In this document: one piece after another, positions 1 to 9,804 of the stretch | Position numbering within the stretch: position 1 is the first letter of the stretch | Layout: the number at the start of each line of letters is the position of its first letter | Origin: a virus | IMG/VR virus record: IMGVR_UViG_3300025282_000201 | Span: 1-26,626 of that record | Reading direction: 5' to 3' (one strand) | DNA length: 26,626 nt | Translations under genes and position numbers: made by a program | Notes under the pieces: generated by a model | Seen by the model: only the letters and a program-made list of their open reading frames with translations | Told to the model about the DNA's origin: nothing | Databases searched by the model: none

Positions 1-39
1 ATTATCGCTAGCACACCCCATACCACAATAGCCAAAAAT

Positions 40-180
40 TCAAGTATCGGCATTATCCTCTTGAGCATCTTTAAATTCTACCTTTTCCTGTAAATTTTCC
101 TGATTCCCGTAAAAAATTTCCTCTTCAATTGGCCAACCTTTTCCTTGATAGTTACTTAAGTCGTCAGAATAATCGTACAT
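40..180 (-). CDS. Small acidic hypothetical protein, 46 aa
   Basis: I do not recognise this protein. It reads from an ATG at 180 to a TGA at 40-42 and is acidic and hydrophilic, with no membrane segment. A purine-rich AAAGG lies about 8 nt upstream of the ATG, which supports the start. It is the last complete minus-strand gene before the left edge and lies just beyond a hairpin terminator (201-231). It may therefore be expressed by read-through or have no strong promoter of its own; I see no room for a promoter between the terminator and the start. Short, but its RBS and tight packing fit the neighbouring small genes. Confidence 0.5.
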   Translation of the reverse strand: MYDYSDDLSNYQGKGWPIEEEIFYGNQENLQEKVEFKDAQEDNADT

Positions 181-200
181 GATGCTTACCTTTCTGTGCT

Positions 201-231
201 TAAAAGACGCAACCCCCCGAAAGAGGTTGCG
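201..231 (-). terminator. Rho-independent terminator (minus strand)
   Basis: Read on the minus strand, CGCAACC pairs with GGTTGCG around a short loop, and the hairpin is followed by TCTTTT. It sits 40 bp downstream of the stop of the SH3-like gene and probably ends the transcript covering 272-883. There is no T-run on the plus strand, so it looks one-directional. Confidence 0.7.
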
Positions 232-271
232 CCCTATGAATCTAAGCCCTAGTGATATTTATCAGTATTAT

Positions 272-442
272 TTACTTGGCTAGGAACTCAGCTTTACTTT
301 GTCGATACGATTTGAAGTGGTCGCCATGATCCACACAAAATGCAGGCTCTGGTTTATTGCTGAATACTCGTTCAACTTTACCTTGCCGCACTTTATTATG
401 ATACACAAATTTGACGTTTTGTCCTACTTTTAGCTTTGACAT
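272..442 (-). CDS. Small SH3-like beta-barrel protein, 56 aa
   Basis: The protein starts MSKLKVGQNVKF and continues with a KVRQGKVERV segment, the hydrophobic/basic strand pattern of small SH3-like barrels in phage early regions. The exact role is unknown. I chose the ATG at 442 because GAGGG precedes it by about 5 nt. A longer reading from 481 would run 52 bp into the upstream gene without an obvious RBS. With the 442 start it overlaps the 3' end of the upstream gene by 13 bp, so the two are likely translationally coupled. The fold assignment is by pattern only. Confidence 0.65.
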   Translation of the reverse strand: MSKLKVGQNVKFVYHNKVRQGKVERVFSNKPEPAFCVDHGDHFKSYRQSKAEFLAK

Positions 443-693
443 TTTTCCCTCTGGTAAATGGTTCGGTTTTCCATTAAACATAACAAATCATTCCTATCTA
501 GTGGGGCTCTTCCTATTCGTTGTGGATAGCCCGCATCAATCCACATTTTCATCAGTTCTTCATCATCATTGTAAGGGCTTATGTCAGCGTACACCTCCTG
601 CCCGTTGGGCTTCTTGACTATATGCCATGCCTTGATATTGTCCTCTTCCCGATCATACTCTATGCGGCACTTGTGGTCTTTGTAATCAAACAT
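430..693 (-). CDS. Conserved-type phage hypothetical protein, 87 aa
   Basis: A soluble, mixed-charge protein. The central part (ADISPYND, then MWIDAGYPQRIG) resembles hypothetical proteins I associate with phage early regions, but I cannot name a function. The ATG at 693 has AAGGAG about 7 nt upstream. It also has its own near-perfect promoter (712-739) embedded in the end of the preceding gene. It overlaps the SH3-like gene by 13 bp, and the pair forms a short operon ending at the 201-231 terminator. Confidence 0.75.
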   Translation of the reverse strand: MFDYKDHKCRIEYDREEDNIKAWHIVKKPNGQEVYADISPYNDDEELMKMWIDAGYPQRIGRAPLDRNDLLCLMENRTIYQREKCQS

Positions 694-711
694 GGTTTCT
701 CCTTGTACTTT

Positions 712-739
712 ATTATACCACAGATTCTGGGTCTGTCAA
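712..739 (-). promoter_or_regulatory. Sigma70-type promoter inside the end of a gene
   Basis: Minus-strand TTGACA (734-739) and TATAAT (712-717) with a 16-bp spacer: both hexamers match consensus. The promoter overlaps the last codons of the 713-883 gene and the stop codon lies in the -10 box. It drives 430-693. The TGTGG just before the -10 also occurs in the 2437-2464 promoter. Confidence 0.85.
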
Positions 740-883
740 GTGCTGCAATGGATAATTATCCAAAAAGTCCGCAACACATTCGAGTTCCTCATCGGGAATC
801 TCATCGACTTCATTTGCCCATGTGTCGAAATCGTCGCAGTAGTATTCCTCGCAGCTAACTTCCGAATCAAAGTGATCAAACAT
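713..883 (-). CDS. Small acidic protein with a CEEYYC motif, 56 aa
   Basis: ATG at 883 is preceded by AAGGAG, and the stop TAA lies inside the next promoter. The protein is very acidic. Its N-terminus (FDHFDSEVSCEEYYCD) closely matches the N-terminus of the 3951-4256 gene (DHFDTEITCEEFYCDE) although the codons differ, so the motif is under selection. The two cysteines spaced CxxxxC could bind metal or form a disulphide; that is inference. It is the first gene after the module-head promoter at 924-951. Function unknown. Confidence 0.75.
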   Translation of the reverse strand: MFDHFDSEVSCEEYYCDDFDTWANEVDEIPDEELECVADFLDNYPLQHLTDPESVV

Positions 884-923
884 GATTGCTCCTTGGTCGT
901 GGGTTGTTTCTTCTTACTCCCCC

Positions 924-951
924 ATTATAACTATATATCGACCAAAGTCAA
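924..951 (-). promoter_or_regulatory. Module-head sigma70-type promoter (class 1)
   Basis: Minus strand TTGACT (946-951), 16 bp, TATAAT (924-929). The spacer carries GTCGATATATAGT, shared with the other module-head promoters. It lies just downstream (minus sense) of intergenic element R1 and 40 bp before the 713-883 gene. Confidence 0.85.
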
Positions 952-962
952 CCCCCACCATC

Positions 963-1072
963 AATAATTCTGAAAGATTTCCCACATTGTCATAAGTCGT
1001 TACTACATAAGGAGTTACGTCGAGCGCGGCCCGCCCCCATCGCCGTAAGTCGTTACAGCGTAAGGGTTTACG
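963..1072. repeat. Intergenic element R1 of a six-copy family
   Basis: Plus-strand reading: an AATAATTCTGAAAG leader, TAAGTCGTTA at 993, TAAGGAGTTA at 1008, a GC-rich core, TAAGTCGTTA at 1046 and TAAGGGTTTA at 1061. All four are TAA-N4-TTA dyads, so this is the most complete copy. It separates the end of the 1079-1258 gene from the promoter at 924-951. Confidence 0.9.
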
Positions 1073-1078
1073 TCAAGT

Positions 1079-1258
1079 TTACAATTCATCTCTAAGGTTA
1101 AGAAATTTGATGTGGTATTTTCCAAGTGGAATAAATTGCCAATTAAACTTTTCACCTATCCACTGTGCAATTGCAAAGGGATCATTTCCAATTTCTGTTG
1201 GAATTTCCACATTAATAACGCTTCCGGTACTTGGTCGCATAGCTTTACAAGTTATCAC
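1079..1258 (-). CDS. Hypothetical protein, 59 aa, GTG start
   Basis: A soluble protein with segments IPTEIGNDPFAIAQWIGE and FLNLRDEL; no family recognised. The GTG at 1258 is favoured because AAGGA precedes it and the stop TAG of the upstream miniprotein overlaps it by one base (TAGTG), a classic coupling arrangement. An internal ATG six codons later is the alternative start. It is the last gene of a four-gene overlapping run (1774 to 1079) and ends just before element R1. Confidence 0.65.
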   Translation of the reverse strand: MITCKAMRPSTGSVINVEIPTEIGNDPFAIAQWIGEKFNWQFIPLGKYHIKFLNLRDEL

Positions 1259-1350
1259 TAAAAATCCTTATCGTTATAGCTAACGTATATAATCGTAGTC
1301 CATACTCCAATCACAGCACCCAACCATAAAATAGTCCAAACTAAGGGCAT
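1258..1350 (-). CDS. Single-helix membrane miniprotein, 30 aa
   Basis: The product begins MPLVWTILWLGAVIGVW and is one hydrophobic helix (about residues 3-24) with a short charged tail, SYNDKDF. GAGGAG precedes the ATG by 5 nt. The gene overlaps the upstream gene by 10 bp and the downstream GTG by 1 bp, so it is embedded in an operon. It is one of six comparable miniproteins in this arm. Such peptides commonly act on membrane complexes, but nothing here specifies the target. Confidence 0.65.
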   Translation of the reverse strand: MPLVWTILWLGAVIGVWTTIIYVSYNDKDF

Positions 1351-1505
1351 AAAATCTCCTCTACTTGTTTTTGTGTGAGCTTAGTTATTTTCCCATTTTT
1401 ATCAGAGAAAATACAAACCACACCACCGCTCTTGGTGTTTTCAATTTTTGTAAAAGTCAATTCCGTACCATCAAACTCAATCTTGCTACCATAAGGGAAA
1501 TTCAT
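1341..1505 (-). CDS. Hypothetical protein, 54 aa
   Basis: A small beta-rich-looking protein (MNFPYGSKIEFDGTELTF, then GGVVCIFSDKNGKITKL). The alternation of hydrophobic and polar residues suggests a small barrel, but I cannot assign a family. AAGGA precedes the ATG at 1505, and the upstream gene stops 3 bp before it. Its 3' end overlaps the start of the 30-aa membrane miniprotein. Confidence 0.65.
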   Translation of the reverse strand: MNFPYGSKIEFDGTELTFTKIENTKSGGVVCIFSDKNGKITKLTQKQVEEILCP

Positions 1506-1507
1506 TT

Positions 1508-1774
1508 TTAGTTTTCCTTGAAGTTAAAATAATAACGTGGACCGTGTTGAAATTCTAGCGTACCGGCAACATTATCAGCTTTACGTTCCACAATAATATA
1601 TGGGGCCGCAAAACTCTTCGCTACAAAATCTTTTTGAAGTTGTTGTGTATTCCACACTTGTCCATACTCCGCTTCCAGCCGTACTCGTTCCGCATCCTCG
1701 TCTGAACTCTCTACCTCCGTGTTGATTCTAGTGACTTCGCTTCTGCGAATAGTTTCGGTTGGATCGTGGCTCAT
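1508..1774 (-). CDS. Conserved-type phage hypothetical protein, 88 aa
   Basis: The N-terminal half is acidic (VESSDEDAERVRLEAEYG). The C-terminal half has the pattern VWNTQQLQKDF, FAAPYIIVERK, LEFQHGPRYYFNF, which I associate with a recurrent phage hypothetical family of unknown function. I chose the ATG at 1774 because GGAG sits 6 nt upstream; the longer reading from 1810 would enter the structured RNA element. First gene of the 1774-1079 operon. Confidence 0.75.
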   Translation of the reverse strand: MSHDPTETIRRSEVTRINTEVESSDEDAERVRLEAEYGQVWNTQQLQKDFVAKSFAAPYIIVERKADNVAGTLEFQHGPRYYFNFKEN

Positions 1775-1803
1775 AGTTTTCTCCAAAAAATAAAGTGTAG
1801 GAT

Positions 1804-1907
1804 GCCCCACATCGGACTTGCACCGAGAATGTTTGCAGTGGCTACTTGTGGCTAGGTTACCGCACCATATCCACTAACCTATCAAACATCGTCTCTTTGA
1901 CCGGGGC
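1804..1907 (-). ncRNA. Structured RNA element with a tRNA-like T arm
   Basis: On the minus strand GCCCC (1903-1907) can pair with GGGGC (1804-1808) to close a 104-nt element. Inside are an 8-bp stem GATGTTTG/CAAACATT (1883-1890 with 1828-1835, one G-U), a perfect 7-bp stem TAGGTTA/TAACCTA (1875-1881 with 1853-1859) and a hairpin TCGG-TGCAAGT-CCGA (1812-1826) resembling a tRNA T arm. I could not fold a normal D arm or anticodon arm, so it is not a standard tRNA. It lies between the lipoprotein stop and the RBS of the 1508-1774 gene: a 5' leader element, a degenerate tRNA or an ncRNA. Confidence 0.4.
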
Positions 1908-2069
1908 TCAATATGCTCGTGATACTTCCTGTGAAATTTCGTAGTTAATGTGATCGTCTGGGAATGCGTGTCGTACCACAACCTTTGTAGTTGTAACACA
2001 ACCGTTCAGGAAAATCAACCCCCAAATAATAAGCAATACGCCGATATATCTCACCGTAGTTTTATTCAT
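1908..2069 (-). CDS. Small lipoprotein, 53 aa
   Basis: Starting at the ATG at 2069, the protein has a basic N-region (MNKTTVRY), a hydrophobic stretch (IGVLLIIWGLIFL) and a lipobox ending NGC with Cys at residue 24. That is the pattern for signal peptidase II processing. The mature part is about 30 residues (starting CVTTTKVVVRH) and would sit on a membrane face. Phage early lipoproteins can block receptors or exclude superinfection, as T5 Llp does; applying that here is inference. The start codon overlaps the stop of the upstream gene, and the RBS is a modest GGA. Confidence 0.7.
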   Translation of the reverse strand: MNKTTVRYIGVLLIIWGLIFLNGCVTTTKVVVRHAFPDDHINYEISQEVSRAY

Positions 2070-2406
2070 CTTCCATATCCAAATTGGTTCTTGCTGCAAA
2101 TTTTAATTGTGCCCGATACCGAGCGTCTTCATCCACATGAACCTTTGACCTATCAAACTCACCAGCTAAGTCAACGAACTGACCTATCGAATCGTACCTA
2201 CTTAGTTCATCGGCTTGTTCACGGTATAACTTGATATTTTCTTGCCGTTCTTGCTCATAATCTTTGGCGAATTGTTCACGCATATATTTTTCTTCAAGTT
2301 CCTTTTGGATTTTTTTGTTCTCTTCATCCCATTCCGCCAAGCTCTTACCATTGTATTCAAAGCATTCGGAAATAGTCGCTTCAAGTTCGGTCAGTTCGTA
2401 AGTCAT
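2062..2406 (-). CDS. Highly charged hypothetical protein, 114 aa
   Basis: A hydrophilic, Glu/Lys/Arg-rich protein. The segment EWDEENKKIQKELEEKYM onward to about residue 70 is probably helical or coiled coil. No catalytic motif is seen. The ATG at 2406 is preceded by AAGGA and lies about 30 nt downstream of a consensus promoter (2437-2464); an upstream in-frame ATG near 2448 falls at the promoter -10 and cannot be the start of that transcript. It heads an operon with the lipoprotein gene, which it overlaps by 8 bp. Confidence 0.75.
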   Translation of the reverse strand: MTYELTELEATISECFEYNGKSLAEWDEENKKIQKELEEKYMREQFAKDYEQERQENIKLYREQADELSRYDSIGQFVDLAGEFDRSKVHVDEDARYRAQLKFAARTNLDMEDE

Positions 2407-2436
2407 AATTTTTTCCTTCGTGTTAAGTGTCTCTTT

Positions 2437-2464
2437 ATTATACCACAAAATTCCTACTTGTCAA
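2437..2464 (-). promoter_or_regulatory. Sigma70-type promoter, perfect hexamers
   Basis: Minus strand TTGACA (2459-2464), 16-bp spacer, TATAAT (2437-2442). The spacer ends TGTGG, as in the 712-739 promoter, and lacks the CGATA motif of the module-head class. It drives 2062-2406 and probably everything down to 1079. Confidence 0.85.
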
Positions 2465-2482
2465 CCCCTGTAGCAGATAATT

Positions 2483-2737
2483 TTACTTTCTCAACAGGTT
2501 GTTACATTCAATCATATTGTCTGAGGGTGAGGGAGCATTACGGCAAAAAATCTCGTCGCTGATCAACCATCCAAACCATCCGTCTTCAGATCTTAAGAAT
2601 ACACTAGGAACGCCATCCATGCAAGCTGGATTGTCAAACGCTTCCAATTTAAACACGGGACCGTGTTCCCTAATTCTATCCTTAGTACGTTTACTTGCGT
2701 TTGGCATACAAGTAATTTCTGCCATTAAATCTAACAT
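2483..2737 (-). CDS. Hypothetical protein, 84 aa
   Basis: A soluble protein with four Cys spread along it and a segment VPSVFLRSEDGWFGWLISDE that suggests a small beta domain. I do not recognise a family. The ATG at 2737 lies 9 nt after the stop of the 34-aa gene, with AAGGG between the two; an ATG four codons later is a possible alternative. It is the second gene of the module that starts at promoter 2876-2903, and is followed by the internal promoter 2437-2464. Confidence 0.65.
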   Translation of the reverse strand: MLDLMAEITCMPNASKRTKDRIREHGPVFKLEAFDNPACMDGVPSVFLRSEDGWFGWLISDEIFCRNAPSPSDNMIECNNLLRK

Positions 2738-2746
2738 TTTGGACCC

Positions 2747-2851
2747 TTATCCTTTTGCTTGGCGAACCATTGCAGCCCAACGAGCTACGCTGATGTGAGC
2801 CGGGCGAACCTGAGTGAAGCGAATTCGGAGTTGAACTTGTGCGAGTGTCAT
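2747..2851 (-). CDS. 34-aa basic microprotein, copy 1
   Basis: This short ORF has a paralogue at 4952-5056 that is 26/34 identical by my alignment. Both begin MTLAQV, end in AMVRQAKG, and contain VRP and HISVARW. The variable positions cluster in residues 7-14. Each copy has an AAGGAA-type RBS at similar spacing and is the first gene after a class 1 promoter. The protein is basic with an amphipathic C-terminal half, so nucleic-acid or membrane-surface binding is possible. Conservation between copies is the main evidence that it is a real gene. Confidence 0.75.
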   Translation of the reverse strand: MTLAQVQLRIRFTQVRPAHISVARWAAMVRQAKG

Positions 2852-2875
2852 TGTTTATTTCCTTGTGATGCTCTT

Positions 2876-2903
2876 ATTATAACTACTTATCGACAAAAGT
2901 CAA
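2876..2903 (-). promoter_or_regulatory. Module-head sigma70-type promoter (class 1)
   Basis: Minus strand TTGACT (2898-2903), 16 bp, TATAAT (2876-2881), with GTCGATAAGTAGT in the spacer. It drives the first 34-aa gene and lies next to element R2. Confidence 0.85.
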
Positions 2904-2913
2904 TACCTACAAT

Positions 2914-3022
2914 CAACAATTCTGAAAAGTTTCCGAGATAGCTGTAAGTCGTTGGTATGAAAGGAGTTACGGCGAGCGTGGCCCGCCCCCGTCGTCGTAA
3001 GTCGTTACTACGTAAGGGTTTA
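2914..3022. repeat. Intergenic element R2
   Basis: Same order as R1: a CAACAATTCTGAAAAG leader, TAAGTCGTT at 2945, AAAGGAGTTA at 2960, a GC-rich core, TAAGTCGTTA at 2998 and TAAGGGTTTA at 3013. The last dyad supplies the TAA stop codon (3020-3022) of the neighbouring minus-strand miniprotein gene. Confidence 0.9.
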
Positions 3023-3127
3023 GGAGTATCTCATGTATAGCTCAAAAATATAAGATCCTAACATAATCCACAATGCCAGTACGATCAGCCATCTCTGTAG
3101 TCTAGTTATTCTTGAATGAAATGTCAT
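3020..3127 (-). CDS. Single-helix membrane miniprotein, 35 aa
   Basis: A basic N-terminus (MTFHSRITRLQRW) is followed by one hydrophobic helix (LIVLALWIMLGSYIF) and a short tail (ELYMRYS). The positive-inside rule suggests the N-terminus faces the cytoplasm. AAGG precedes the ATG at 3127. Its stop codon lies within the last dyad of element R2. It sits just beyond a hairpin terminator (3136-3168), so expression may depend on read-through. No family recognised. Confidence 0.6.
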   Translation of the reverse strand: MTFHSRITRLQRWLIVLALWIMLGSYIFELYMRYS

Positions 3128-3135
3128 TTTTCTAC

Positions 3136-3168
3136 CTTAAAAAGGGAAACCCCCATATAGGGGGCTTT
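3136..3168 (-). terminator. Probable intrinsic terminator (minus strand)
   Basis: Minus strand AAGCCCCC-TATAT-GGGGGTTT forms an 8-bp stem (one G-U) followed by CCCTTTTT. It lies 3' of the 3245-3430 gene and just upstream of the 35-aa miniprotein, so it may attenuate rather than fully stop transcription. Confidence 0.55.
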
Positions 3169-3176
3169 AGTAGGGC

Positions 3177-3220
3177 TGGGTAAGATGGGACATTGAGCAA
3201 CAGAGCTTTATCCCATCCCA
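3177..3220 (-). other. Long imperfect stem-loop in a 3' untranslated region
   Basis: On the minus strand TGGG/CCCA and ATGGGA/TCCCAT pair around an internal AGC/GCT stem, giving a three-part hairpin of 44 nt. It lies between the stop of 3245-3430 and the terminator at 3136-3168. It may stabilise the transcript end or be part of a small RNA. Confidence 0.4.
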
Positions 3221-3244
3221 CCTGCTTCACCTATTTCCCTTTAT

Positions 3245-3430
3245 TTATGATTTAGTATATACGTTTACTCCAACCGACACAACTCGCCCATTCAACGCAA
3301 TCTGCTGATTGCCGCGCGTGGTAGCTAGAATTTCATTCTTGCCGCTAGCCGATAGCGTTCCCTTGGCCGACAAGGGCAGCACGATGGTCATTGTGTTTGT
3401 TTCGTCATTCTTAGTAACTTGAATTGACAT
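3245..3430 (-). CDS. Conserved-type small phage protein, 61 aa
   Basis: The pattern TMTIVLPL, then SASGKNEILATTRGNQ, then VVSVGVNVY resembles small phage and bacterial hypothetical proteins that share an SASGKT..ASTRGN core; no function is known to me. AGGAG precedes the ATG at 3430 at normal spacing. A promoter at 3533-3560 leaves a leader of about 95 nt. It is the only gene between that promoter and the terminator at 3136-3168, so it is probably transcribed mainly alone. Confidence 0.75.
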   Translation of the reverse strand: MSIQVTKNDETNTMTIVLPLSAKGTLSASGKNEILATTRGNQQIALNGRVVSVGVNVYTKS

Positions 3431-3532
3431 CTTTGCATCTCCTAAAAAGTAAAGAAAGTAAAAGTAAAACCTATTCAGTAGCTTTTAAGCTCTACCCCGT
3501 AGGGTCCAGTTAGGTCTTGGTTCTGTGCTTTT

Positions 3533-3560
3533 ATTTTACCATAGTAATTGTGAAAGTCAA
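3533..3560 (-). promoter_or_regulatory. Sigma70-type promoter
   Basis: Minus strand TTGACT (3555-3560), 16 bp, TAAAAT (3533-3538). The spacer ends TATGG, like the internal promoters at 712 and 2437. It serves the 3245-3430 gene. Confidence 0.75.
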
Positions 3561-3577
3561 CCCCCCAGATCATTTTT

Positions 3578-3688
3578 TTACATATTAGATACAAGTACCA
3601 AAGCTCCCACGGCGGAAGCAATCAAGATCATACTTGTAAAAACAAACATTATTACAATTTCCTTGATCCAATAAAATAGAGTTCTCAT
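3578..3688 (-). CDS. Single-helix membrane miniprotein, 36 aa (paralogue A)
   Basis: It is 24/36 identical to the product of 4837-4947. Both start MR, contain IKE then IMFV, and share the core TSMILI-SA-GALVL; both end NM. The helix spans about residues 11-33 and is flanked by a short basic/acidic N-terminus. The ATG at 3688 has AGGA upstream, and the gene ends 18 bp before the -35 of the next promoter. The core resembles the 6668-6781 miniprotein (VLIASAVL). Conservation between copies supports a real membrane function of unknown nature. Confidence 0.75.
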   Translation of the reverse strand: MRTLFYWIKEIVIMFVFTSMILIASAVGALVLVSNM

Positions 3689-3714
3689 TTTATTTTCCTT
3701 AAAAAAGTTAATTG

Positions 3715-3945
3715 TCATTCACAACCCCAACGGCCATGACCTGTTACCATTTCCGCTGTGATCTCGGGAACCGCTTCCCAACTTAAAATCTCACAAAACG
3801 GATTAAATCTATTATAGTGAAAACCTCCACATTTCAGATCGTTTGCGAGTCTCTCTCCAGACACTTGCTGGTGATTCTCAACCCGACCTTTTGGGCTTAC
3901 TATCCGAACATTGTACATTCTGTTTAATTCAACTTTATTTGACAT
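3715..3945 (-). CDS. Hypothetical protein, 76 aa
   Basis: A soluble protein beginning MSNKVELNRMYNVRIVSPKG, with KCGGFHYNRFNPFCEILSW in the middle. Nothing identifies a family. GGAG lies 9 nt before the ATG at 3945; the longer reading from a TTG at 3960 would bury that RBS. The upstream gene stops 5 bp before this ATG, so the two are co-transcribed. Confidence 0.7.
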   Translation of the reverse strand: MSNKVELNRMYNVRIVSPKGRVENHQQVSGERLANDLKCGGFHYNRFNPFCEILSWEAVPEITAEMVTGHGRWGCE

Positions 3946-3950
3946 TTTAA

Positions 3951-4256
3951 TTAACTCCAAAGATTTTTTAGTTTATCCAAATTTTCAGTGTATTCTTTAT
4001 GAGCTTTTTTTAGCTCATTTTTTTCAATTTCCTTTAGACATCTAGCAGCTTCTTTTTCTGCTCTTACTCCGCGAAAACCCTTAGCTTTAAGGTGATTTAA
4101 AATCTTAATCCAATCTTCTTTTGTTTTTTGACTTCTTTTTTCTAGATTCATTTTCTTTTCCTTTTCTTCAAAAAATAGTGTTCTTTCTTCCCATGCGAGT
4201 CGGTCCTCGTCACAGTAGAATTCTTCGCAAGTAATTTCCGTGTCAAAATGGTCCAT
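3951..4256 (-). CDS. Charged coiled-coil protein with a CEEFYC motif, 101 aa
   Basis: The N-terminal ~25 residues (MDHFDTEITCEEFYCDEDRL) match those of the 713-883 gene. The rest is Lys/Glu-rich and probably helical or coiled coil (EEKEKKMNLEKRSQK, then ELKKAHKEYTENLDKLKN). The ATG at 4256 has AGGAG close upstream; the in-frame ATG at 4340 lies in a leader with no RBS. The shared N-terminus on different bodies suggests a portable interaction module. First gene of the 4256-3578 operon. Function unknown. Confidence 0.7.
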   Translation of the reverse strand: MDHFDTEITCEEFYCDEDRLAWEERTLFFEEKEKKMNLEKRSQKTKEDWIKILNHLKAKGFRGVRAEKEAARCLKEIEKNELKKAHKEYTENLDKLKNLWS

Positions 4257-4348
4257 TTTCTCTCCTGTGGTTGTAGTTCGTTCAGTGTCTCTTAAACCTA
4301 ATCTTGCGATTCCAGTCGAACTTGTGTTAACGCTTTTCATAATAGTAT

Positions 4349-4360
4349 ATAGTGCACTAT
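4349..4360. promoter_or_regulatory. Perfect 12-bp palindrome, possible operator
   Basis: ATAGTGCACTAT is a perfect palindrome about 90 bp upstream of the ATG at 4256, close to TATACT- and TATTAT-like boxes on the minus strand. It could be a repressor site for the 4256-3578 operon. No second copy was noticed in the window. Confidence 0.35.
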
Positions 4361-4482
4361 TCGTGCCATTCAGAATAAATGATTTTTGTGTTGTCGTAAG
4401 TCGTTTCGTACCATCGAGTTAAAATCTTGAAAATAGTTTTTTAGTAACGTTTCATTAAATTACCTTAACGTCATAATGGCAG

Positions 4483-4511
4483 ATTTTAGCACCCCTATGC
4501 CAAAATGGCAA
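4483..4511 (-). promoter_or_regulatory. Candidate sigma70-type promoter
   Basis: Minus strand TTGCCA (4506-4511), 17 bp, TAAAAT (4483-4488). The -35 lies in a TGCCA/TGGCA inverted repeat, which could be an operator. It would leave a leader of more than 200 nt before the gene at 4256. Confidence 0.5.
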
Positions 4512-4543
4512 ACCGCATTTAAGTCGTTTGATATCATATACTT

Positions 4544-4569
4544 AGGAGAAATTAGTCGGCTTTTCTCCT
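4544..4569. repeat. Inverted repeat, 8-bp arms
   Basis: AGGAGAAA (4544-4551) and TTTCTCCT (4562-4569) flank a 10-nt loop. There is no T-run on either side, so it is not a typical terminator. Confidence 0.6.
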
Positions 4570-4640
4570 GTCAAAGTGGCAGGGAAGGATTCTCATTATG
4601 AGATTAGATTGTGTTTGGCACATGAGTTGCTCTGCGGAAT

Positions 4641-4711
4641 CGTCGTAAGTCGTTAGTATCAAAGGAGTTACGGCGAGCGGGGCGGGGCTCCATCGCCCTA
4701 AGTCGTTACCA
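4641..4711. repeat. Intergenic element R3 (truncated on the right)
   Basis: TAAGTCGTTA at 4646, AAAGGAGTTA at 4661, a GC-rich core and TAAGTCGTTA at 4699 keep the 15- and 53-bp offsets. The fourth dyad and the AATTCTGAAAG leader are absent, and no gene stop overlaps it. Confidence 0.85.
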
Positions 4712-4836
4712 CATCAGCACTTATAAAATAACTCGCGTGCCCTGAGCACCTACCGTATCTCGCAGAAGTCTACCATGGGTAAGACTCTCATTCAGTGGCG
4801 ATTAGCCCTAGCCTTACGGCTCCAGTTGAGCGTATC

Positions 4837-4947
4837 TTACATGTTGTTTAGTAGTACCAGTGCCCCTATGGCAGATGTGATCAGTATCATACTGGTCCAG
4901 ACAAACATGATAGCTACTTCTTTGATGATCCAGATAACGTTACGCAT
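4837..4947 (-). CDS. Single-helix membrane miniprotein, 36 aa (paralogue B)
   Basis: Paralogue of 3578-3688 (24/36 identical), with the same length, the same IKE/IMFV motif before the helix and the same TSMILI-SA-GALVL core. AAAGGG precedes the ATG at 4947 and overlaps the end of the second 34-aa gene, so the two are a tight pair behind promoter 5081-5109. The protein is predicted to span the membrane once (about residues 11-33). The duplication argues for a dosage- or partner-specific role, but none can be named. Confidence 0.75.
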   Translation of the reverse strand: MRNVIWIIKEVAIMFVWTSMILITSAIGALVLLNNM

Positions 4948-4951
4948 TGTC

Positions 4952-5056
4952 TTATCCCTTTGCTTGACGAACCATTGCACTCCAACGTGCAACACTGATG
5001 TGAGTCGGACGAACTGTACTGTACTTGATGTAGAGTTTAACTTGTGCGAGTGTCAT
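4952..5056 (-). CDS. 34-aa basic microprotein, copy 2
   Basis: Second copy of the microprotein at 2747-2851, identical in length. The N-terminal MTLAQV, the VRP and HISVARW segments and the C-terminal AMVRQAKG are unchanged; residues 7-14 differ. AAGGAA precedes the ATG at 5056, as in copy 1, and it is again the first gene after a class 1 promoter. Here the next gene is a membrane miniprotein rather than the 84-aa protein found after copy 1, so the module heads are conserved while their followers differ. Confidence 0.75.
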   Translation of the reverse strand: MTLAQVKLYIKYSTVRPTHISVARWSAMVRQAKG

Positions 5057-5080
5057 TGTTTCTTTCCTTGTTATGCCCTT

Positions 5081-5109
5081 AGTATATACTAGTTATCGGC
5101 GTTTGTCAA
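5081..5109 (-). promoter_or_regulatory. Module-head sigma70-type promoter (class 1)
   Basis: Minus strand TTGACA (5104-5109), 17 bp, TATACT (5081-5086), with GCCGATAACTAGT in the spacer. It drives 4952-5056 and 4837-4947. Confidence 0.85.
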
Positions 5110-5121
5110 TAGGGTAGGCCA

Positions 5122-5230
5122 CTTATTATTAAAGATTACCGAGATAGTTATAAGTCGTTGCTGTGTAAGGAGTTACGTCGCCGGGGCCGGGGCGCCGTCG
5201 CCCTAAGTCCTTTGGTAGTATAGGGTTATG
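5122..5230. repeat. Intergenic element R4
   Basis: A degenerate leader (AAAGATTACCGAGATAG), TAAGTCGTT at 5151, TAAGGAGTTA at 5166, a strongly GC-rich core (CGCCGGGGCCGGGGC) and a variant TAAGTCCTT at 5204, again 53 bp from the first. The stop codon of the 5226-5333 gene lies in its right end. Confidence 0.85.
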
Positions 5231-5333
5231 ACCAGATGTCTCTGTCTTCCCGTGTTGCCTTCCATATGCCGCGCCATACCATAACCACAAGCACTACCCA
5301 CACAACCATAAAGGAAATAAAGTTCCAATCCAT
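5226..5333 (-). CDS. Single-helix membrane miniprotein, 35 aa
   Basis: One hydrophobic helix at the N-terminus (FISFMVVWVVLVVMVW) is followed by a charged tail (KATREDRDIWS), suggesting N-out/C-in topology. Its ATG at 5333 lies 7 nt after the stop of the upstream gene, and the SD is weak. Tight packing and a membrane-type composition support it as a gene. Its sequence is not close to the 3578/4837 pair. Confidence 0.6.
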   Translation of the reverse strand: MDWNFISFMVVWVVLVVMVWRGIWKATREDRDIWS

Positions 5334-5340
5334 TTTAATT

Positions 5341-5496
5341 TTAATATCCTAAGAAGTTAAGTATCTCATAACCATAGTACTCCTCCCTATCGCCACGCTC
5401 TTGCGTGAACTCATAGAAGGGGGCATCGTGTGCCTCTAGTTCAAGTCGTGCTTCCTGTCGTGATACAATCGCTTCACATGCTTCGTGATAATCCAT
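5341..5496 (-). CDS. Small acidic hypothetical protein, 51 aa
   Basis: An acidic, probably helical protein (EACEAIVSRQEARLELEAHD, then a Tyr-rich C-terminus). GGAGG lies 5 nt before the ATG at 5496; another ATG nine nt upstream would destroy that spacing. It is the first gene behind promoter 5544-5572 and forms a pair with the 35-aa membrane miniprotein. No family recognised. Confidence 0.7.
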   Translation of the reverse strand: MDYHEACEAIVSRQEARLELEAHDAPFYEFTQERGDREEYYGYEILNFLGY

Positions 5497-5543
5497 ATCA
5501 ACCTCCATTCTCTACGAGTGTTAGTGTTGTTTGTCATTCTCTT

Positions 5544-5572
5544 ATTTTAGCAAAATTGCGATTGGTTGTCAA
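5544..5572 (-). promoter_or_regulatory. Sigma70-type promoter inside the end of a gene
   Basis: Minus strand TTGACA (5567-5572), 17 bp, TAAAAT (5544-5549). The whole promoter lies in the last codons of the 5547-5744 gene, whose TAA stop forms the first half of the -10 box. It drives 5341-5496 and 5226-5333. Confidence 0.8.
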
Positions 5573-5744
5573 TAGCTCTTTTTTTCATAATCTCTTGAGC
5601 TTTCGATTCGCAACCGCCGTCATTATGCCAGCGAGTACCTTCAATAACCTTACCATCAAACTTTGCAACAAAGTGCCGAAAGTGTACCTTTACTACTTCG
5701 ATACCAAATACGTTTCCGCCATTGTTGAATGTGATTTTAGTCAT
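5547..5744 (-). CDS. Hypothetical protein, 65 aa
   Basis: A basic, beta-rich-looking protein (MTKITFNNGGNVFGIEVV, then HFRHFVAKFDGKVIEGTRWH) with a helical basic tail. It could be another small barrel, but no family is recognised. AAAGGAAATGAG precedes the ATG at 5744. A longer reading from 5780 would start at or before the predicted transcription start and is rejected. Its 3' end contains the next promoter. Confidence 0.7.
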   Translation of the reverse strand: MTKITFNNGGNVFGIEVVKVHFRHFVAKFDGKVIEGTRWHNDGGCESKAQEIMKKRAIDNQSQFC

Positions 5745-5786
5745 CTCATTTCCTTTCGTGTTATCATTGTTTCTTATCATGCTCTT

Positions 5787-5815
5787 AGTATATACTATAT
5801 ATCGTCATTTGTCAA
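5787..5815 (-). promoter_or_regulatory. Module-head sigma70-type promoter (class 1)
   Basis: Minus strand TTGACA (5810-5815), 17 bp, TATACT (5787-5792), with GACGATATATAGT in the spacer. The sequence after the -10 (AAGAGCATGA) resembles that of the other class 1 promoters. Confidence 0.85.
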
Positions 5816-5828
5816 TAGCTATGGCCAC

Positions 5829-5945
5829 TAATTCCCAGAGATTCCCAAAGATTTCCAAAGTAGTTGTAAGTCGTTACTGTATAAGGAGTTACGTCGCCGG
5901 GGCCGGGCCGCGCTCGTCGTAAGTCGTTTGATAGTAAGGGTTTAT
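5829..5945. repeat. Intergenic element R5
   Basis: TAAGTCGTTA at 5867, TAAGGAGTTA at 5882, a GC-rich core, TAAGTCGTT at 5920 and TAAGGGTTTA at 5935. The last dyad provides the TAA stop (5942-5944) of the 153-aa gene. The leader holds short tandem copies related to AGATTCCCAAAG. Confidence 0.9.
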
Positions 5946-6403
5946 GGCACAACCACACATCGGTTTCTTTTTCCCCCTGTTTTTTTATATTGAGGAAGAA
6001 GCTTGGTAAAGAAATTACTTACACTTCTTGTTTTTATATTATATTGATTATCTAAAGTTTTTTTCAACCAAGCGAATGGAACTCGGGTTGATCGCGGGTT
6101 TAATGCTCTATACTCTGAGAACAGTTTAAGAAGTAAAGTCTTTTTTTGTTCTTCTGTTACATAATTTGGTCGAATATTATCTATACGTTCTTCGGGTTCT
6201 ATAAGGTTAAACATTTCTTTAACGTTTTCTAATTCTTTATATTGTTCTAGCTTAATTTGATTTTCTTTAAGCCTATTGTTAATAGCGTTGGCATTATTGT
6301 GTAGCTTAACTATTTCTTGCTGTATTACTTTTGCTTGATTGTTTAATTGTTGTTGAGCATTCTTTAAGTTGACAAAGTCTTGTAGGTCTTTTGCTGAGTA
6401 CAT
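5942..6403 (-). CDS. Coiled-coil hypothetical protein, 153 aa
   Basis: Residues about 5-70 are Gln/Asn/Lys-rich with heptad-like spacing (AQQQLNNQAKVIQQEIVKL) and probably form a coiled coil. Residues about 80-150 look like a compact basic helical domain (TLLLKLFSEYRALNPRST, then SVSNFFTKLLPQYKK). This layout would suit a DNA- or host-protein-binding oligomer, but no family is recognised. GGAG precedes the ATG at 6403, which lies 1 nt after the upstream stop. Last gene of the module driven by promoter 6821-6848. Confidence 0.75.
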   Translation of the reverse strand: MYSAKDLQDFVNLKNAQQQLNNQAKVIQQEIVKLHNNANAINNRLKENQIKLEQYKELENVKEMFNLIEPEERIDNIRPNYVTEEQKKTLLLKLFSEYRALNPRSTRVPFAWLKKTLDNQYNIKTRSVSNFFTKLLPQYKKTGGKRNRCVVVP

Positions 6404-6404
6404 T

Positions 6405-6656
6405 TTAATTTCTCCAGTGTGGATCGTCGTGTACGGATAGAATCATGTCTTTTGTAAACTCATCATGTAATCTATCGAGAGCTTCATCTAGTTCGTTCTC
6501 ATTGTGACATATGACAGATAGCCCATCATTCACACTATCACACCTATGCCATACCTCAACAATCCTATTGCCTACCTCAATCTCAATATCATGGGCTTGT
6601 GCCCACTTGATTGTATTAGGGTGTACTCTTTTCTTTGCATCAAAATTAAAGTCCAT
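6405..6656 (-). CDS. Acidic hypothetical protein, 83 aa
   Basis: A soluble acidic protein beginning MDFNFDAKKRVHPNTIKW, with a central GNRIVEVWHR strand-like segment and an acidic helical C-terminal half (NENELDEALDRLHDEF). AAAGGA lies before the ATG at 6656. It is the middle gene of a three-gene run and nearly abuts both neighbours. No function can be assigned. Confidence 0.7.
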   Translation of the reverse strand: MDFNFDAKKRVHPNTIKWAQAHDIEIEVGNRIVEVWHRCDSVNDGLSVICHNENELDEALDRLHDEFTKDMILSVHDDPHWRN

Positions 6657-6667
6657 TGTAGTTTCCT

Positions 6668-6781
6668 TTACTGGGTGATAAGGCTAGTGAGAACTGCGGA
6701 AGCAATCAGTACAATGCTTGCGGGAATGAAGATTGAAACCAGAAGATATACGCCGTACAAAACTCTGCTAAGATTAATCAT
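6668..6781 (-). CDS. Single-helix membrane miniprotein, 37 aa
   Basis: The product is almost entirely hydrophobic (VLYGVYLLVSIFIPAS, then VLIASAVL) with a short tail. AAAGGAG precedes the ATG at 6781 and the module-head promoter lies just upstream. The SIVLIASAVLTSLI part resembles the SMILIASAVGALVL core of the 3578 miniprotein, so it may be a distant member of that family. It is first in an operon with 6405-6656 and 5942-6403. Confidence 0.65.
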   Translation of the reverse strand: MINLSRVLYGVYLLVSIFIPASIVLIASAVLTSLITQ

Positions 6782-6820
6782 GGCAACTCCTTTTGTGTGA
6801 TTGTTGTTTGTCATGCTCTC

Positions 6821-6848
6821 ATTATATACTATTATCGTCTCATTGCAA
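6821..6848 (-). promoter_or_regulatory. Module-head promoter (class 1), weaker -35
   Basis: Minus strand TTGCAA (6843-6848), 16 bp, TATAAT (6821-6826), with GACGATAATAGT in the spacer. It drives 6668-6781, 6405-6656 and 5942-6403. Confidence 0.75.
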
Positions 6849-6859
6849 TAGCAGTATGA

Positions 6860-6970
6860 AATAATTCTGAAAGAATAACAGAATAGCCATAACTCTATAC
6901 ACTGTAAGGAGTTACGTCGCCGGGGCCGGGGCTCGGTCGCCCTAAGTCCTTTGGTGGGTATAGCTTAGGG
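6860..6970. repeat. Intergenic element R6 (degenerate)
   Basis: It has the AATAATTCTGAAAG leader, a degraded first dyad (TAACTCTAT at 6890), an intact TAAGGAGTTA at 6905, a GC-rich core and TAAGTCCTT at 6943. The 15- and 53-bp offsets are kept although the outer dyads have drifted. Confidence 0.8.
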
Positions 6971-6978
6971 TGAGCGAA

Positions 6979-7032
6979 CCGTTTTGAGCTGCCGAGGCAG
7001 CAAGTTGGGCCGTTTTGAGCTGTCGAGGCAGC
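6979..7032. repeat. Two 23-bp direct repeats, each with an inner inverted repeat
   Basis: Copies at 6979-7001 and 7010-7032 differ at one base and are 31 bp apart start to start. Each begins CCGTTTTGAGCTG and contains an inverted repeat (GCTGCC-GA-GGCAGC in the first, AGCTG/CAGCT in the second). The spacing of about three helical turns suits paired protein-binding sites. Confidence 0.65.
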
Positions 7033-7171
7033 TACAGATCGCATATATAGGGTGGGGTTTTCTAATTCAAGTGAATTCTCGTATAAAATAGGAAAAAAGC
7101 CGAGGTGGTTCAAACAAACTAAAACCCATCAAACCAAATGTCCACTTTTATCCTAAAGATAGTGATAACAC

Positions 7172-7468
7172 TCACCACCCCTTCTTCGGTTGCTCTAAGT
7201 CCCTATCTTTTCTATAGTCCACGACCAATTCTTCCCCCTCTTCAATTTCCCTAAGAGTCACTAAATATTTAAAATTTCCCAGAGTAAGAGATCGACAGTT
7301 GGGTTTGCCCGAATGGTTATAAGAACAGTTCGGCACTAGATTAAGCCACTCAAAAGCGCCGCTTGTCTTTTTATGGGTCTCGAAAAGAACTTTGTTTTCG
7401 GGTATAATTTCCGTCGCAAAGATACCCTTTCCATGTACCTCACTATCTTTGAACTCACACCAGCTCAT
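7172..7468 (-). CDS. Minimal SET-domain protein (candidate lysine methyltransferase), 98 aa
   Basis: The SET hallmarks are in order: HGKGIFA (residues 12-18, cofactor-binding N-motif), NHSGKPN (51-57) and GEELVVDY (78-85, with the catalytic-type Tyr). The family transfers methyl groups from S-adenosylmethionine to lysine in proteins. At 98 residues it is close to the minimum for the fold and lacks an obvious post-SET cysteine cluster. GGAGG precedes the ATG at 7468, which overlaps the upstream HTH stop by 4 bp. The substrate is unknown; a host or phage protein is inference. Confidence 0.85.
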   Translation of the reverse strand: MSWCEFKDSEVHGKGIFATEIIPENKVLFETHKKTSGAFEWLNLVPNCSYNHSGKPNCRSLTLGNFKYLVTLREIEEGEELVVDYRKDRDLEQPKKGW

Positions 7469-7662
7469 TTTTCCTCCAGTTCGCATCTGCCTCGTCCGCT
7501 TTTTTTAACAATACCAAGACGTTGTCTAAGCTTACGTACAGCATCTAATGAAATAGTGCGTTGATTACGCAAGCTTAATTCTTTAGCTAAATCTTTATCT
7601 TTAATATGATGAGCATTTTCCCTAATAAATCGCTTATCTTCAGTAGTCCATTTATTATTCAT
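7465..7662 (-). CDS. Small HTH DNA-binding protein, 65 aa
   Basis: The segment EDKRFIRENAHHIKDKDLA followed by RTISLDAVRKLRQRLG reads as a Myb/SANT-like or resolvase-type HTH used by phage terminase-like and regulatory proteins. The C-terminal tail is basic (KKSGRGR). It resembles the N-terminal HTH of the 8646-9443 product. No clear Shine-Dalgarno is seen before the ATG at 7662. Position at the divergent boundary and coupling to the SET gene (4-bp overlap) suggest a regulator of either arm. Confidence 0.7.
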   Translation of the reverse strand: MNNKWTTEDKRFIRENAHHIKDKDLAKELSLRNQRTISLDAVRKLRQRLGIVKKSGRGRCELEEK

Positions 7663-7686
7663 TTACAAGAGAGCCTATTTTGTGTA

Positions 7687-7715
7687 TTAATAAAGTGGTC
7701 ATTTGCATATATAAT
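7687..7715 (+). promoter_or_regulatory. Candidate plus-strand promoter for the right arm
   Basis: TTAATA (7687-7692), 17 bp, TATAAT (7710-7715) lies 25 bp before the first right-arm ATG. The -35 is weak. The -10 is embedded in an AT-rich stretch, so a phage-specific promoter is also possible. Confidence 0.5.
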
Positions 7716-7739
7716 ATTATAGTCAAGGAGATCATAAGA

Positions 7740-7916
7740 ATGAAAAAAATTATTCAAGCTACAGAACCCATAGCCATTGCTGCTAGCGGTTTAGACGAGG
7801 CCGTAATGACTCAAGCAAGTATTTCCACCGAAAAAGATATCATAGACCTTTTAGGAGAACAAAATGAGATTAAAGATAGTATCGGAAGGGACGGGAGATA
7901 CAACGAAAGTAGTTGA
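7740..7916 (+). CDS. Hypothetical protein, 58 aa
   Basis: A small acidic protein beginning MKKIIQATEPIAIAASGLDE; no family recognised. CAAGGAG lies 9 nt before the ATG at 7740, so this start is preferred over the in-frame extension to 7680. It is the first gene of the plus-strand arm, and its last 53 bp overlap the next gene. Confidence 0.65.
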   Translation: MKKIIQATEPIAIAASGLDEAVMTQASISTEKDIIDLLGEQNEIKDSIGRDGRYNESS

Positions 7917-8127
7917 TGCAGATACCGGAGAAGAGGTAGAAAATATTATAGGCCTCGAATTGAGCATGGACGCTTTTAATGTAGAAGCAGCTATTTTAGT
8001 TAGTGACCCCCATTTAAATATTGAAAATTTAGAAGCACGGGAGATTAGACAAGGTGATTCCGCAGGGTATGACGGAAGAACAGGTGATCCAGATAATAAA
8101 CAACATAGCGAATCGATTAGCAAATAA
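7864..8127 (+). CDS. Hypothetical protein, 87 aa
   Basis: The N-terminal half (MRLKIVSEGTGDTTKVVDAD, then IIGLELSMDAF) looks like a small beta domain; the C-terminal tail is polar and likely disordered. AGGAG precedes the ATG at 7864, which supports a real gene despite 53- and 74-bp overlaps with its neighbours. Function unknown; early position in the right arm suggests a regulatory or structural accessory role. Confidence 0.65.
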   Translation: MRLKIVSEGTGDTTKVVDADTGEEVENIIGLELSMDAFNVEAAILVSDPHLNIENLEAREIRQGDSAGYDGRTGDPDNKQHSESISK

Positions 8128-8677
8128 ATTTAAGTTTGGTTATCATGCATTAGAAGATATGAAACAACAGGCACGCTTATTTGCTTGGGAAGGTATTGAA
8201 AATTACGATGGCATCAGACCTCTAGAAAACTTTCTTTGGACACATGTTAGAAACCGTCTTTATAACTTTAAGAGAAATAACTTTGGAAGGCCGGATAAGC
8301 CTTGCGATTCCTGTCCATATTTCGATATAGCTTTTGAAAACGATAAAGGATATGGATGTAGGGCATATGATAATCATGAAGAATGTGATTTGTATATGGG
8401 ATGGTTAAAAAGAAACACTGCAAAACGCAATATCATGAACACTGCACAACTAGACCTAGATATCAAACAGTCCGATGCTATAGAGGATATGATAGATAAA
8501 AAACAAATTTTTAACCTAGTTGATAAATCTATTCCAGTACAATATAGAGAAGATTGGATTAGGCTGGTAAATAATCTCAAATTAGCAAAGGTTAAACGCG
8601 ATATACTTATTGAAGTTATCATACAAATATTCAAGGAGAATAACATTGACGAAGAAGCGTGGAAAACTGTCGATTGA
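8054..8677 (+). CDS. T4 gp55-like late sigma factor candidate, 207 aa
   Basis: Residues about 20-75 match sigma region 2: ALEDMKQQARLFAWEGIENY, then PLENFLWTHVRNRLYNFKR. Region 2 binds RNA polymerase and the promoter -10. A Cys4 cluster follows (C84, C87, C102, C111), probably zinc-binding. The rest is helical, and there is no region 4, as in T4 gp55. The likely role is directing host RNA polymerase to phage late promoters. GTG at 8054 is chosen because GGGAG lies 10 nt upstream; an ATG five codons later is the alternative. Overlaps 74 bp with the preceding gene. Confidence 0.75.
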   Translation: MIPQGMTEEQVIQIINNIANRLANKFKFGYHALEDMKQQARLFAWEGIENYDGIRPLENFLWTHVRNRLYNFKRNNFGRPDKPCDSCPYFDIAFENDKGYGCRAYDNHEECDLYMGWLKRNTAKRNIMNTAQLDLDIKQSDAIEDMIDKKQIFNLVDKSIPVQYREDWIRLVNNLKLAKVKRDILIEVIIQIFKENNIDEEAWKTVD

Positions 8678-9443
8678 CGAAATGAACTTTATTCGGCAAA
8701 ATTGTTTCAATATTTCCATAGAAGAAATTGCTGAAACTTTAAATAGGACTAAAACGCCGGTACAAAAGTTTATCGACAAAGAAAATCTCAAAATGCGCAA
8801 TATGAGTGACGATGAACATCTTCTTGTAGGGCTAAGAGACCGCTATTATTATAAGGAACTTAAAAAACAGTTCGGAGATCCCGAATTAATTTTTTTCGAA
8901 CACCAGTGGATTGACTACTTTAAACAATTCTCTGAGGACGTTACTCATACAGAGGAAATGGAAATACTAGAGGTTATTAGAACAGAGGTGCTTATCAATA
9001 GAGGCATGGAAGACCGCCAAGAAGTTTTAAGAAACATCGCTAGATTAAATAAACTTATTGAAGACGAAATGGATAAACCGCCAGCAACGCGCGACACGCA
9101 AGCGCTAGCTTCATTCCAAACTCAACTAGGCGCGGCTATATCATCTAAGTCCGCGTACATTAATGAGCACGAAAAGTTGTTAACAAAAAAAGAGCGGCTT
9201 TTGAAAGATCTTAAAGGTACAAGGGAACAGAGGAAAAGAAATGCCGATGATGCGAAGACGAATTTTACTTCGTGGTTGCGTCAGTTAGACAGTAAGGAAT
9301 TTAGACAGCAAGAAGGATTTGATATGGAAGTTCATCGGGTAGCGGCTGAAAAGGCAATGGATAAGCTTGCTCAGTATCACGAATATGAAGACGGCACTGT
9401 CGATCAGCCAATGTTAAATTCAGACACCTTTATTGAGGAGTAA
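8646..9443 (+). CDS. HTH/coiled-coil protein, candidate small terminase, 265 aa
   Basis: The N-terminus has an HTH-like segment (LSIDEMNFIRQN, then IEEIAETLNRTKTPVQKFID). A long helical middle (about residues 110-205) contains oligomerisation-type repeats, and the C-terminus is acidic. This order, DNA-binding domain then coiled coil, and the position before the packaging genes fit a small terminase subunit, but metabolic genes intervene and no signature proves it. The TTG at 8646 is preferred: AAGGAG lies 7 nt upstream. The longer reading from 8610 lacks this. It overlaps the sigma gene by 32 bp. Confidence 0.6.
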   Translation: MTKKRGKLSIDEMNFIRQNCFNISIEEIAETLNRTKTPVQKFIDKENLKMRNMSDDEHLLVGLRDRYYYKELKKQFGDPELIFFEHQWIDYFKQFSEDVTHTEEMEILEVIRTEVLINRGMEDRQEVLRNIARLNKLIEDEMDKPPATRDTQALASFQTQLGAAISSKSAYINEHEKLLTKKERLLKDLKGTREQRKRNADDAKTNFTSWLRQLDSKEFRQQEGFDMEVHRVAAEKAMDKLAQYHEYEDGTVDQPMLNSDTFIEE

Positions 9444-9444
9444 T

Positions 9445-9804
9445 ATGACATCTAAAACTCAGGAAGAAGTTCAGGAATGGATAGTTCAATGGTTAGTAGA
9501 TGTTGCAGAAGTGTCAAGGGAGTCTATTGAACTTGATAAGCCGTTTGCAGACTATCGCTTAGACTCGTTAACGGCGGTTGAGTTTAGTGGCGATATCGAA
9601 GAGTGGTTAGATATTACGGTAACAGCAACGGTTCTTTGGAATCATCCGACATTGCGCCATATGACTATATATCTAGCAGAACGTTCTAGTGGTCAAACAG
9701 AAGTCAAAAAGCTTTTTGAGCCTACTACAGGAGCTGTGGAGGCGATTTTGGCAGGTGTTGAAAACGTGAGCGATGAAGAAGCTAAAAAATTATTGGAGGA
9801 ATAG
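9445..9804 (+). CDS. Acyl carrier protein, PKS type, 119 aa
   Basis: The four-helix carrier fold is clear: EEVQEWIVQWLVDV, then FADYRLDSLTAVEFSGDIEE with the phosphopantetheine-attachment Ser41 in a DSL motif, then NHPTLRHMTIYLAE. It resembles the carrier domains of type I polyketide synthases, including cyanobacterial ones, more than fatty-acid AcpP. The C-terminal tail (NVSDEEAKKLLEE) resembles PKS C-terminal docking peptides, so it may plug into a host synthase; that is inference. GAGGAG precedes the ATG at 9445. First of a three-gene cassette with a methyltransferase and GDP-mannose dehydratase. Confidence 0.85.
   Translation: MTSKTQEEVQEWIVQWLVDVAEVSRESIELDKPFADYRLDSLTAVEFSGDIEEWLDITVTATVLWNHPTLRHMTIYLAERSSGQTEVKKLFEPTTGAVEAILAGVENVSDEEAKKLLEE

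Follow-up and report, generated by a model that had tools for sequence, protein, structure and literature searches.

A paired palindromic element, helically phased to outward-facing promoters, is a candidate upstream regulatory site in an uncultured family of phages

Elements in the window

The virus record IMGVR_UViG_3300025282_000201 of IMG/VR was analysed over its positions 1 to 26,626, and this whole stretch of 26,626 nucleotides is called the window here. Its minus-strand arm carries six copies (R1 to R6) of an intergenic element made of two palindromic dyads around a GC-rich core, which is likely to be an upstream regulatory site of phage promoters. A six-copy element had been proposed in a preliminary description drawn from the letters of the window, and it was recovered here: a motif scan found the 12 dyads of R1-R6, two in each copy, together with one divergent dyad and one weak match, against a mean of 0.3 matches in each shuffled window. 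Similarly, the gapped 62-bp pattern TAAGTCSTT-N44-TAAGTCSTT had five exact matches in the window and none in 100 shuffles. As originally described, all copies are intergenic and confined to the minus-strand arm. They share one orientation.

All six elements lie on the minus strand. R1 occupies positions 987..1076, with dyads at 993-1017 and 1046-1070 (scores 42.2 and 44.0), the GC core at 1018-1045 and CGnCRA extensions. R2 (2939..3028; dyads 2945-2969 and 2998-3022) and R4 (5145..5234; dyads 5151-5175 and 5204-5228) each contribute their distal TAA as the stop codon of a 35-aa gene, and the distal TAA of R5 (5861..5950; dyads 5867-5891 and 5920-5944) is the stop of the gene at 5942-6403, so that the three cases in which the element was said to supply the stop of the preceding gene were all found. 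R3 (4640..4729) has dyads at 4646-4670 and 4699-4723, the second being degenerate, and R6 (6884..6973) is divergent, with dyads at 6890-6914 and 6943-6967 (scores 24.8 and 16.9). The starts listed earlier (963, 2914 and so on) are too early, falling about 5-40 bp ahead of the first dyads. An additional divergent single dyad, TAAGTCGTTTCGTACCATCGAGTTA, is present at 4397..4421 (-) with a motif scan score of 20.4. Three inverted repeats of the type TGCCA-N4-TG[AG]C[AG], possible operators, were also seen at window positions 4470-4590, between R3 and the next module.

Most of the sequence regularities described earlier hold. The box AAGGAGTTAC is exact in 6/6 copies, and the 53-bp offset is kept even in R6 (6890 to 6943). 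The first box TAAGTCGTT, thought to be common to R1-R6, is replaced by TAACTCTAT in R6, and TAAGGGTTTA, reported for most copies, occurs in R1, R2 and R5 (3/6) and is degenerate in R3, R4 and R6. The degenerate boxes are thus the first of R6 and the last of R3, R4 and R6.

The dyad unit and its distribution

The earlier parsing into four TAA-N4-TTA dyads must be replaced. Among 541 unique dyads from relatives, the base after TT varies (A 41%, G 40%, T 15%), and therefore TAAGTCGTT and AAGGAGTTA together form a single 9-7-9 dyad as its two arms, each lengthened outward by CGnCRA. The repeat unit is a palindrome of about 37 bp with the consensus TYGnCGTAA[ACG]YC[CG]TTR-N5-YAA[CG]GACTTACGnCRA. 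Usually two such dyads stand 49-53 bp apart around a GC-rich core, the commonest distances being 53 bp (99 cases), 52 (29), 50 (22) and 49 (8). Divergent relatives keep this spacing, the loss of which had been named beforehand as grounds for abandoning the element.

The half pattern TAAGTCSTT-N7-AAGGAGTTAC is present in 118 IMG/VR stretches. With a relaxed pattern, dyads whose arm gap is exactly 7 numbered in the hundreds, against two in reversed controls, and a weight-matrix scan of 2.03 Mb of IMG/VR contigs found 1121 dyads, against seven in the reversed sequence. Dyad-bearing records hold up to about 14 dispersed elements each. In the ten larger contigs examined, core genes occur in overlapping sets (portal, terminase, capsid-region genes, DnaB, PolIII, SSB, RecA and a sigma factor), and the contigs are therefore assigned to one uncultured family of large tailed phages, to which the element is essentially limited. 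Among full-length terminases, the best relatives show about 24% identity. Megablast against cultured phages gave no match, and at the sensitivity of megablast and distant blast no cultured phage carries the element; the matches that the latter returned, in Microbacterium and Gordonia phages, were all partial and had the GC core at their centre. Literature searches for this motif class also gave no match. Searches of genomes matched 35 stretches, chiefly in termite Treponema and in planctomycete tRNA flanks.

Promoters beside the elements and helical phasing

Sigma70-type consensus promoters within 250 bp of the elements point outward in 227 cases and inward in 27, and shuffled flanks have a promoter about 6% of the time. 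Of 334 cases, 259 have the AACGACTTA arm on the promoter side, and the linker upstream of the -35 hexamer is AT-rich. After dereplication, distances from the last dyad to the -35 hexamer show peaks at 30-31, 41, 51-52, 61-62 and 72 bp, with a best period of 10.6 bp (Rayleigh nR2 56.5, n=217). To lessen the effect of relatedness, 500 draws were made in which each of 81 loci contributed a single element; the mean nR2 was then 16.8 and the lowest draw 7.0, compared with a maximum of 8.4 in 2000 null sets in which distances were jittered over one turn. The element is thus a repeated specific site in one orientation upstream of promoters, at distances of whole helical turns, as a helix-phased upstream site would be.

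The window follows this pattern on its minus strand. The leftward promoter of R1 (924..951) is TTGACT-N16-TATAAT with GGTCGATA in the spacer, and that of R2 (2876..2903) is TTGACT-N16-TATAAT with TGTCGATA. R4 is followed by TTGACA-N17-TATACT with GCCGATA (5081..5109), R5 by TTGACA-N17-TATACT with GACGATA (5787..5815), and R6 by TTGCAA-N16-TATAAT with GACGATA (6821..6848). The -35 hexamer lies 41 bp from R1, R2, R4 and R6 and 51 bp from R5, the linker of which appears to contain a 10-bp tandem duplication (AATCTTTGGG AATCTCTGGG) and can therefore be read as having gained a whole helical turn. R3 has no consensus promoter at a phased distance.

Element promoters match the consensus at 9-12 of the 12 hexamer positions, and 68% of them contain NNCGAT, mostly within the spacer. 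In the window, NNCGAT is found in 5/5 element promoters and in 0/4 strong promoters without an element. The latter four (712-739, 2437-2464, 3533-3560 and 5544-5572, all on the minus strand) lack CGAT and have TG ahead of the -10 hexamer, and represent a different promoter class.

The element promoters could alternatively be repressed. A protein bound at the two dyads, perhaps with another at NNCGAT between -35 and -10, would loop or occlude the promoter and keep early modules off until needed. The near-consensus hexamers and the frequent NNCGAT motif keep this version alive, and helical phasing would be required equally by loops. However, NNCGAT also pairs with TAAAG 20-21 bp away and has a second register immediately past the -10 hexamer, and a second promoter therefore fits it better than an operator does. 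Repression is a rather unlikely explanation.

TAAAG and [GT]nCGATA are 20 or 21 bp apart in 104 cases, as against 0-6 cases at most other distances, and this spacing (TAAAG-N15/16-[GT]nCGATA) is that of a sigma28-like promoter. The pair overlaps TTGACA/TATAAT in two registers across the family (records L006-L123 and L159-L205); in the second, the CGAT motif falls just after the -10 hexamer. The element promoters of the window contain the CGAT part of the pair. A further motif, GCAnnnnnnnTGCC, stands 14-16 bp beyond elements in 24 of its 48 matches. In the window it is represented by GCAACTCATGTGCC at 4617..4630 (-), 15 bp beyond R3, and the motif class recurs 14-16 bp out in relatives. Sequences like GCAAATAYCRTGCC, of this second motif, were also noted near elements in L033, L020, L013 and others. 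Of 30 records, 13, almost all of which are long contigs, encode proteins of the sigma70 family with region 4, and none of these region-4 factors reaches the FliA/WhiG cut-offs. In L222-L238, divergent phage sigma70-family factors with region 4 were observed, up to three per record. One tentative idea, which we hold to be possible but not probable, is a many-part promoter code in which the phased double dyad, an optional second operator (GCAnnnnnnnTGCC at 14-16 bp) and overlapping sigma70-type and sigma28-like promoters would be read successively by host polymerase and phage sigma factors.

Terminator and folded-RNA readings

The elements have a GC-rich core and stand after a stop codon and ahead of the following promoter, which could also suit a terminator or an insulator hairpin dividing the modules. 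RNA folding of the copies, which had been proposed as a check, gave a divided answer: taken whole, the element is more stably folded than its shuffled versions (mean z -2.5), an effect of its palindromic dyads, from which the fold signal comes, whereas the core by itself is no better than shuffled sequence (z -0.2). No T-run and no terminator-like site was found at any of R1-R6, in keeping with the earlier statement that they are not plain terminators. Moreover, arm-to-arm mismatches are fixed, and the phasing to the promoter would be left unexplained. A terminator or insulator is thus very unlikely.

A function as folded RNA or single-stranded DNA would require paired columns to covary. The arms and spacers gave no consistent positive covariation signal, a weak signal being seen at the core centre only, and the fold reading is therefore disfavoured. 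In addition, Rfam had no match at E<=1 in window positions 1-8000. On these grounds, namely the covariation of arms and spacers, the folding of the core and the Rfam search, an RNA hairpin was rejected.

Recombination, iteron and mobile-repeat readings

Two gene indels distinguish the window from a related record (L110), and both end at the promoter-distal edge of an element (1074/1259 in the window vs 3735/3739, and 5227/5334 vs 6180/6179). The gene order of the window is unlike that of another relative, L071. Homologous exchange between element copies could be the source of the indels.

Module indels of this kind are also expected if the elements were integron-like attC sites and the modules gene cassettes moved by an integrase. 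Clusters of attC sites borne by phages (phage CALINs, clusters of attC sites lacking an integron integrase) have been published (PMC9892861). The shared cassette-like layout is considerable, as the elements have one orientation, directly follow stop codons with one to few small genes between copies, and have a variable core flanked by two arms whose spacer is non-complementary. However, the R-box rule (RYYYAAC ... GTTRRRY, with AAC before and GTT after the spacers) does not hold; the polarity here is the opposite, GTT-N7-AAC. The tyrosine recombinase domain Phage_integrase (PF00589) was not found in cis in any of 30 element-bearing records, in a search whose control was detected in 14/14; an integrase supplied in trans would still be conceivable. 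The arm and spacer columns lack compensatory pairing, and attC sites would have no need of the phased promoter. Membership in the attC class was rejected on box polarity, integrase and covariation, and this origin is hardly credible. A recombinase core site was likewise dropped, as no tyrosine recombinase was found in the 30 records. The recombination seams suggested earlier are weakly possible: they are in line with the two indels ending at element edges, and at odds with the missing recombinase.

Replication iterons, also proposed before, would be tandem copies clustered at one origin. This proposal is not supported, since the copies are dispersed over the arm and each has a promoter to which it is tied; in the virus of the window nearly all element copies lie beside a promoter.

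A mobile repeat of the REPIN or MITE (miniature inverted-repeat transposable element) type, carrying a promoter and spreading within these phages, would account for the many copies per genome and for the likeness of R1, R2 and R4 in element, linker and promoter. Against it, inspection by eye revealed neither target-site duplications nor terminal repeats, spacing and phase persist at high divergence, and copies are tied to promoters at orthologous places in the window and in L107 and L110. We consider this highly improbable.

Proposed function

We consider it likely, judging from the sequence comparisons, that the element serves phage promoters as an operator or upstream activating sequence, at which a phage transcription factor would bind and contact RNA polymerase. 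The candidate "sites for a phage protein" of the preliminary description is the one that fared best, the elements being palindromes, family-wide and helix-phased to the next promoter. Fixed palindromes phased over 2 to 7 turns fit the needs of a DNA-bound regulator contacting RNA polymerase. One dimeric protein would bind each 37-bp dyad, and the two dimers would sit about five helical turns apart with the GC-rich core between them. Bound on a fixed helix face, whole turns upstream of the -35 hexamer, the protein would contact RNA polymerase or bend the AT-rich linker towards it, and the output of the short gene module would thereby be set. The binding protein is probably encoded by the phages themselves, because the element is all but restricted to their family. 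Activation is slightly favoured over repression, because the layout resembles those of Fis at rrnB P1 and of phi29 p4.

The activity of class I activators such as CRP depends on whole helical turns from the promoter; their sites share the whole-turn distance with the element, which differs in being a tandem double dyad. The rrn P1 promoters have a 16-bp spacer, and 16-bp spacers are also common in element promoters. At E. coli rrnB P1, Fis sites are centred at -71, -102 and -143 on one helix face (PMC2885671), and by sequence arithmetic the dyads of the window centre near -90 and -143. Both systems thus have several palindromic sites on one helix face upstream of a strong sigma70 promoter; in contrast, the elements are phage-borne, have sequence-specific 37-bp dyads and a GC-rich core, and stand at a gap that varies by whole turns. 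The phi29 protein p4, bound upstream at A3/A2c, stabilises RNA polymerase at a phage promoter (PMC11476376). It is, as the regulator proposed here would be, a phage protein acting on the polymerase from upstream, but the p4 sites lie between one promoter pair, whereas here up to about 14 dispersed elements, unrelated in sequence to the p4 sites, occur per record. Helix-phased upstream regulation is therefore already known, and it is the bipartite architecture that looks new.

Several points weigh against an upstream regulatory site. Near-consensus promoters should need no activator. Among 353 double elements, 152 (about 43%) lack a consensus promoter where the spacing would place one, and some, R3 among them, show no promoter; many of those inspected have TTGC-type or farther promoters. 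The GNCGAT motif is also found in some phage promoters without an element, the contigs are related so that counts are not independent, and for the binding protein only a weak candidate was found.

With these reservations, the element provides a DNA signature for transcription control in a widespread phage family for which no cultured member was found here, and it allows promoters, operons and a dedicated regulator to be predicted from DNA alone. Its helical phasing amounts to a natural experiment, made in dozens of phages, on the upstream reach of a regulator. The motif can also link fragments of these phages across metagenomes.

Window genes and further observations

A phage sigma factor of the region-2 type (Sigma70_r2) is encoded at 8054..8677 (+) and is conserved in element-bearing relatives. 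The neighbouring gene (8610..9443, +) encodes a D5-like protein, for which an N-terminal helix-turn-helix and long helices are predicted. It is a weak candidate for the element-binding protein and could equally be a small terminase: no significant fold match was found in PDB, and the list of weak matches includes the HK97 small terminase. For these reasons it is not claimed as the binder. The window also encodes a SET-domain protein (7172-7486, -) and an acyl carrier protein (9433-9804, +).

Similar motifs were noted beyond the IMG/VR contigs. In planctomycete metagenome-assembled genomes (MAGs), a dyad TAAGTCCTT-N7-AAGGAGTTACGnCRA stands directly 3' of tRNA or tmRNA ends (L126, L133, L138, L139, L147 and L157 from Thermoguttaceae MAGs, and L130 from a Gemmata MAG). 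The phage element is present, with a phage-like GDP-mannose dehydratase, in a 6.2-kb contig (L137) of a Thalassolituus MAG bin, which is probably a misbinned phage contig. Finally, TAAGTCGTTACAGGATAAGGAGTTACATGGGGGG repeats occur in a termite-gut Treponema MAG (L124, L125, L127, L132, L134, L136, L140, L142, L144, L146 and L150-L156), often beside long G runs and near contig ends.

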